A stretch of DNA of 41,986 nt from Bacteroidetes bacterium 4572_114 (lineage in GTDB: Bacteria > Bacteroidota > Bacteroidia > Bacteroidales > 4484-276). The stretch spans positions 1-41,986 of the forward strand of contig NIVA01000003.1 in assembly GCA_002254335.1 (NCBI GenBank), read 5' to 3'. Made by a program: the position numbers and the translations under genes. The number at the start of each line of letters is the position of its first letter. Within the stretch, counting starts at the first letter, position 1. Positions 38,711 to 40,667 of this stretch are shown piece by piece. Below the pieces are notes generated by a model, which searched no databases, was not told the origin of the DNA, and saw only the letters and a list, made by a program, of their open reading frames with translations.

Positions 38711-39448
38711 TTAAATATCTCCTCCAACAGTTCTTGCAATAACTAATGGAACAATTATTTCAGCCCCAAAATTAGTCAATAATTTACCAATTTCCCTAAT
38801 TGTTGCACCACTATCAAAAATATCATCAATAAGCAGGATACTTTTGTTATTGATTTCAATAGGCTCTGTGAAATTAAATGCCCCCGAAACATTGTCTCTT
38901 TTTAAGTAACCATTTTGAAATACTTTTTGTGGTTGTGTTTCACGCTGTTTTACAAGCTTATGGCTGATTGGGACTTTAAGGACATACGAAATTTTTTCAG
39001 CAAAATTTTTCACTAATTCACCGGAACTTGTTGGTGGAACATAAACAATTAAATCAAAATGTTTGTTTCCAAAAGTTCTCCTAAAAGCTTTCAGGGTAAG
39101 TTTTAATAAAAAATCAGGGAAGTCGCCACCATTTTCATATTTACAACGATGCAAAACAGTGCCAACATTTGAAACACCATAATACGAAGAGGCAATTCCG
39201 TTTTTAATATTTGAATTGTTGCTTTCAACATTAAGAACGGGGAAATAGGTTTCTCTAAATTCTTTTAGTTTTTCTATGGTTGATTGTTGAGCTACTACAG
39301 TCCGTTTATTGTACTTCGTATTATCACAATTATCAAATTTATTCGGAAGTTTATCTCCAAGATACTTACATAAAAATTTCATGCGCGGTTCTTTTGTGAA
39401 CACATAATCCACCATTGAACCTAAATCTTTAAGTTTAGCATTTCTCAA
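38711..39448 (-). CDS. phosphoribosyltransferase (ComF-like) carrying a RecQ C-terminal-like N-terminus; probably the 3' half of a RecQ-PRTase gene
   Basis: 245 aa; PRPP motif SILLIDDIFDSGATIREIG; N-terminal LRNAKLKDLGSMVDYVFTKEPRMKFLCKYLGDKLPNKFDNCDNT resembles the RecQ Zn-binding segment; annotated start is TTG. Confidence 0.85.
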   Translation of the reverse strand: MRNAKLKDLGSMVDYVFTKEPRMKFLCKYLGDKLPNKFDNCDNTKYNKRTVVAQQSTIEKLKEFRETYFPVLNVESNNSNIKNGIASSYYGVSNVGTVLHRCKYENGGDFPDFLLKLTLKAFRRTFGNKHFDLIVYVPPTSSGELVKNFAEKISYVLKVPISHKLVKQRETQPQKVFQNGYLKRDNVSGAFNFTEPIEINNKSILLIDDIFDSGATIREIGKLLTNFGAEIIVPLVIARTVGGDI

Positions 39449-39482
39449 TTCATCAAATTTATCAGTGTTTAGTTCAGGGGCA

Positions 39483-40667
39483 TTAAACGATTTGAGTTTG
39501 CTTCAAATTAGTTTTTTTCATCAATTGCTTTTCGCCAAGTTGCTCCTGCTTAACAGCATCTATCACTTTTTGATATTTTCTGATATTGGGCCTGCCGCCA
39601 TCAACAAAAGCCTTTGGCAGTTTATAGTCTTCAGGTACCCCATTATCATCTTTTTTTGAATTGTAGAACAAAATAATGAACGTTCTTTGTCCATCCCTGC
39701 CTGCCCTGCCAATTTCCTGATAATAGTGAATTGGGGATGCCGGTATTTGCGTATGGATGATAAATCGAATATCCGGTTTGTCGATGCCCATTCCCAGGGC
39801 ATTTGTTGACACGACACATTTCCAATTGTTGTCCATCAAACCTTTTTCAATCTCTTTTCTCGTATCCCCATCAAGTCCGGCATTATAATCGGTTGAATTT
39901 ATGCCAACAAAATCAAACCATCTTGCATATATTTCTGTGTTTACCCGTGTGCCTGTATAAAGCAAGCCTGTTCCGGGAAGTTTATTTATCTTTTCGGCAA
40001 GCCAAAGGAGTTTCTCATCTTCAGATTTTGTTTCAATTACAAACAGGTTGAAATTTTCACGAAGCAGATTGCCCCGGATTGTTGTTAAGTTTCCCGAAAT
40101 TTGTTGTTCAATGTCAGTTTGTACCCTTTTTGTTGCAGTTGCCGTGGTTGCGAGAACAGGAAGTTCTTTAGGGAGTAATTGCACTAAATTTATTATTCTA
40201 CGAAATGCCGGGCGAAAATCATGGCCCCAAACAGAAATAGTATGAGCCTCATCAATTACAATCATTGATAAATCCATCCTCCTTGTCGCCTCAATCCATT
40301 CTTGATTCTCCTGTCTCTCAGGGGCTATGTATAGGATTTTTATCTTACCATCAATTGCATCTTGAATTACCTGAGAATTTTCTTCATGCGTTTGCTCAGA
40401 ATTTATGTGTTTTGCAACAATCCCTTTTTCGTTTAAACCATGAACCTGGTCTCGCATTAATGCAATTAATGGGGAAAATATTATGGTAATCCCATCAAAT
40501 TGTGTAGCAGGAAATTGAAAACAAAGTGACTTACCATACCCGGTTTTTTCAATCAGCAATACTCTTTTCCCGTGAAGAAGCAAATCAATAGTTTCCCATT
40601 GTTCATCATAAAATTTATCGAAACCAAAGGTTCTTTTCAGTTTTTTTTCTGCTTCATTCCGTGTCAT
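39483..40667 (-). CDS. RecQ-family ATP-dependent DNA helicase, N-terminal helicase domains
   Basis: 394 aa; EKTGYGKSLCFQFPA, VIDEAHTISVWGHDFRP, TATATKRV, YYQEIGRAGRDGQ; ends abruptly at MKKTNLKQTQIV*. Confidence 0.88.
   Translation of the reverse strand: MTRNEAEKKLKRTFGFDKFYDEQWETIDLLLHGKRVLLIEKTGYGKSLCFQFPATQFDGITIIFSPLIALMRDQVHGLNEKGIVAKHINSEQTHEENSQVIQDAIDGKIKILYIAPERQENQEWIEATRRMDLSMIVIDEAHTISVWGHDFRPAFRRIINLVQLLPKELPVLATTATATKRVQTDIEQQISGNLTTIRGNLLRENFNLFVIETKSEDEKLLWLAEKINKLPGTGLLYTGTRVNTEIYARWFDFVGINSTDYNAGLDGDTRKEIEKGLMDNNWKCVVSTNALGMGIDKPDIRFIIHTQIPASPIHYYQEIGRAGRDGQRTFIILFYNSKKDDNGVPEDYKLPKAFVDGGRPNIRKYQKVIDAVKQEQLGEKQLMKKTNLKQTQIV

Follow-up and report, generated by a model that had tools for sequence, protein, structure and literature searches.

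The helicase ORF and the adjacent PRTase frame found on the minus strand of the window (the whole stretch of 41,986 nt of contig NIVA01000003.1, from the draft genome of Bacteroidetes bacterium 4572_114) are one known gene, psyrT (rqlH), which is followed by the DprA-like psyrA. The gene is split in the assembly by the absence of 80 nt. Since ugd, galE, genes on other contigs and the only rpoC of the same genome show like clean holes, it is likely, with a probability of roughly 0.87, that this absence belongs to the assembly and not to the organism. The locus itself is one more ordinary PsyrTA (RqlHI) operon, a standard system placed between ugd and galE. Its parts are as follows.

39483..40667, minus strand: 5' part of psyrT, a RecQ-like helicase of 394 aa (PADLOC PsyrT, 580 bits, profile positions 2-396; Pfam DEAD and Helicase_C)
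39488..39489, minus strand: point where the two psyrT parts meet, with 80 nt of the winged-helix coding sequence missing (as aligned with L030-L034 and L085; position +/- 1-2 nt)
38711..39502, minus strand: 3' part of psyrT, the remaining RecQ C-terminal region and the PRTase domain (PADLOC PsyrT, 251 bits, profile positions 420-688; Pfam Pribosyltran)
37575..38708, minus strand: psyrA, a seemingly complete DprA-like antitoxin gene (PADLOC PsyrA, 254 bits, profile positions 6-385 of 398; Pfam DNA_processg_A)

Both halves of the toxin gene match, in order, a single PADLOC PsyrT profile of 689 positions, and this agreement is well beyond chance. The helicase and the C-terminal PRTase are thus both present in the expected order, but in two frames of the assembly, and the second is an open frame without a good start codon of its own. 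The gene for the DprA-like antitoxin adjoins them. PsyrTA is a toxin-antitoxin pair and a candidate for defence against phages (Sberro et al. 2013, cited in PMC8790059). The window shares with it (PADLOC PDLC03928 and PDLC03927) a RecQ-like helicase with a PRTase directly upstream of a DprA-like partner, as well as strong profile matches, and differs in the interruption of the toxin ORF, which we judge to be an assembly fault. The same architecture, a helicase with a C-terminal PRTase domain and a DprA-like regulator next in the operon, is found in RqlH-RqlI of extraintestinal E. coli, where the toxic part is the C-terminal PRTase domain of RqlH, restrained by the DprA-like partner; for this E. 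coli pair the PRTase protein was shown to be toxic and the partner to relieve its toxicity (PMC4670107). That function was shown in E. coli only, whereas the equivalence of the pair in the window is one of architecture. By analogy with this literature, the PsyrT of the window would be a RecQ-type helicase whose PRTase is predicted to be toxic unless restrained by the DprA-like partner. The PRTase and DprA-like parts also match ShosTA (PDLC03961 and PDLC03962), but more weakly (6.6e-6 and 1.9e-32); the ShosTA toxin profile of 237 positions reaches only the PRTase part, and the scores are far below those for PsyrTA.

The helicase frame ends with KKTNLKQTQIV and a TAA stop at 39485-39483 on the minus strand, and this stop is a product of the frame break. 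Shifted by +1 against the helicase frame, the PRTase frame opens just after a TGA at 39505-39503, extends to 38711 and overlaps the helicase frame by about 17-20 nt. A T7 run lies at 39512-39518 on the plus strand. On rechecking, the coordinates, helicase end, T7 run and frame overlap given in an earlier note on this DNA were all correct. That note had further taken the stretch after the break for the RecQ zinc-binding segment, a reading that we keep as tentative since Pfam PF16124 scores 21 bits there against a cut-off of 25.

In genome contigs and relatives, 84 loci were found at which a helicase part lies near the PRTase part, and intact psyrT homologues are present in many Bacteroidota MAGs. 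Alignment to these homologues, a check the earlier note had proposed, showed psyrT as a single continuous ORF of at least 600 aa in 80 of the 84; three others run off the start of their contig and one (L099) is broken elsewhere in the gene. Except in L099, the helicase and PRTase matches lie in the same frame in all homologues, and a psyrA-like gene adjoins psyrT in 81 of the 84. The view that this is one helicase-PRTase gene broken at the domain junction is therefore borne out by the one-ORF homologues together with the single-profile match. Between the two matched parts most homologues carry 66-111 nt, and several of the nearest carry 78. Nucleotide alignment with close intact homologues having this 78-nt spacing (e.g. 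L030, L031 and L034) places a clean absence of 80 nt, or about 26 winged-helix residues, at 39488/39489, and since 80 is not divisible by three the frame is lost. The earlier proposal that a winged-helix stretch of about 30 aa had gone missing and caused the frameshift agrees well with this. In our own reading of the sequence, the absent segment probably codes for the wing of the winged-helix domain and the last part of its recognition helix. A single-base homopolymer error was considered and is ruled out by the 80 nt absent.

Two further observations were made among the homologues. The PsyrT of L099 (4088-5030, from the Mariniphaga sp. Bin2_8 MAG) has two gaps in its helicase region, one of them frameshifting and the other in frame, possibly through the same kind of assembly fault. 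In L085 (2429-3394) and L104 (5001-5960), PsyrT carries a seemingly related insertion, in frame and about 60 aa long, ahead of the PRTase core; most other homologues are without it.

The genes on either side of the locus also contain internal holes, which are visible against solved structures.

40897..41844, minus strand: ugd-type nucleotide-sugar dehydrogenase, 348 nt missing in frame at 41208 (comparison with structures and relatives)
36723..37556, minus strand: galE, 189 nt missing in frame at about 37410 (comparison with structures and relatives)

Both genes are full length in related genomes and adjacent to each other in most of them, and no second copy of galE or ugd was found in the genome; nor was a second copy of the PRTase part of psyrT. 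The holes measure 189 nt in galE and 348 nt in ugd against every relative with usable alignments. The sizes of 381 nt (ugd) and 204 nt (galE) in the gene survey described below are estimates from overlapping matches, and the nucleotide alignments correct them to 348 and 189 nt.

In the survey, 480 kb sampled from the genome of the window and 587 kb of its nearest relative, a member of the same genus, gave 111 aligned genes, and the absence of an internal segment of at least 60 nt was counted as a loss. Eight of the 111 genes had such losses (90-348 nt) in the genome of the window, compared with one in the congener, which lies at an N100 scaffold gap (sign test, p = 0.004 without the N100 gap and 0.02 with it). 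The genes are ugd, galE, rpoC, recQ, a purM-like gene and those for a large repeat protein, an RND-type transporter and an NtrC-type regulator. The six outside the window are listed here.

L163 14953-19149 (contig C240 of the same genome): rpoC, 111 nt (37 residues) missing, join at about 19030
L160 3662-4762: purM-like gene, 90 nt missing
L160 4806-6556: recQ, 160 nt missing, frame lost
L163 about 1239: large repeat protein, 98 nt missing, frame lost
L181 about 1888: RND-type transporter, 115 nt missing, frame lost
L221 about 2500: NtrC-type response regulator, 116 nt missing in the receiver domain, frame lost

As a control, the congener was compared with seven other genomes and showed no such losses in 38 gene pairs; against this control the loss count in a smaller sample (6 of 88 genes) gives a Fisher p of 0.11, which taken alone falls short of significance. 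In one sub-sample of 20 genes from the genome of the window there were no losses. When psyrT is included there are nine losses, four of which are in frame, the proportion expected by chance.

The rpoC hole carries the most weight for an artefact. The gene is otherwise 88-91% identical to that of the congener, no further copy was found in the genome of the window, and solved bacterial beta' subunits, which align with it on both sides of the hole, have the missing block (SFISAASFQETT...) in between. From established knowledge of RNA polymerase, we know of no credible way for an organism to live without that block of beta'.

We propose that this metagenome-derived draft in places joins two pieces directly over 80-350 nt that were never written out, the likely cause being that scaffold gaps were closed, or Ns stripped, without filling in the sequence. 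The holes span 80-348 nt, a range that fits such a fault since it can be bridged by a read pair. The joins carry no Ns, and no short N runs occur in the 480 kb of the genome of the window, compared with eleven in the 587 kb of the congener; a single contig of the former holds one run of 1950 Ns, possibly a withheld stretch. In psyrT, ugd, galE and rpoC the two sides of the join have at most one or a few bases in common, and this near-zero shared sequence rules out both deletion between direct repeats and repeat collapse during assembly. The window holds three of the holes close together and contig C186 another two, so that a local biological cause is possible for some of them.

The main rival to an assembly fault is a real and recent deletion of the 80 nt, which would have cost PsyrT part of its winged helix and its reading frame, and with the frame the toxic PRTase domain, disarming the toxin but leaving the antitoxin in place; such a decay of the toxin-antitoxin locus would mark a natural population. 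PsyrA does look complete, and the near absence of shared sequence at the join is also compatible with end joining, but the like losses in many unrelated genes, including the essential rpoC, make a real deletion improbable, and the earlier claim of a gene broken in the organism itself is left unsupported by them. Nor does the toxin gene itself look decayed: both halves of psyrT diverge from their homologues no faster than intact homologues do from one another, and the PRTase half is without relaxed constraint. Programmed +1 frameshifting, or naturally separate helicase and PRTase proteins, is essentially ruled out: a single shift near the stop, within the frame overlap of about 17 nt, could join the frames, but none of the 84 homologues is naturally split or shows signs of recoding at this point, which they read through in one frame, and the shifted product would still be about 26 winged-helix residues short of the nearest of them. 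With an assembly fault as the preferred reading, psyrT in the living organism is presumably one unbroken ORF of about 680 aa.

The significance of these findings is practical and not biological. Short internal segments are silently dropped from this draft genome, so that any seeming pseudogene, domain loss or split gene in it calls for inspection of the reads before it is interpreted.

PsyrTA is absent from the corresponding place in the relatives, as is the gene at 35644-36648, and the GC content of both is 0.32-0.38, compared with about 0.44 for their neighbours. Low GC together with absence in relatives is as expected of insertions. Plasmid records searched at the DNA level contained no match, and the viral contigs searched held distant helicases only. 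The low-GC gene at 35644-36648 sits between galE and a GDP-mannose dehydratase-like gene, which are neighbours in the relatives, and it matches the PADLOC candidate family PDC-M59A with 485 bits.
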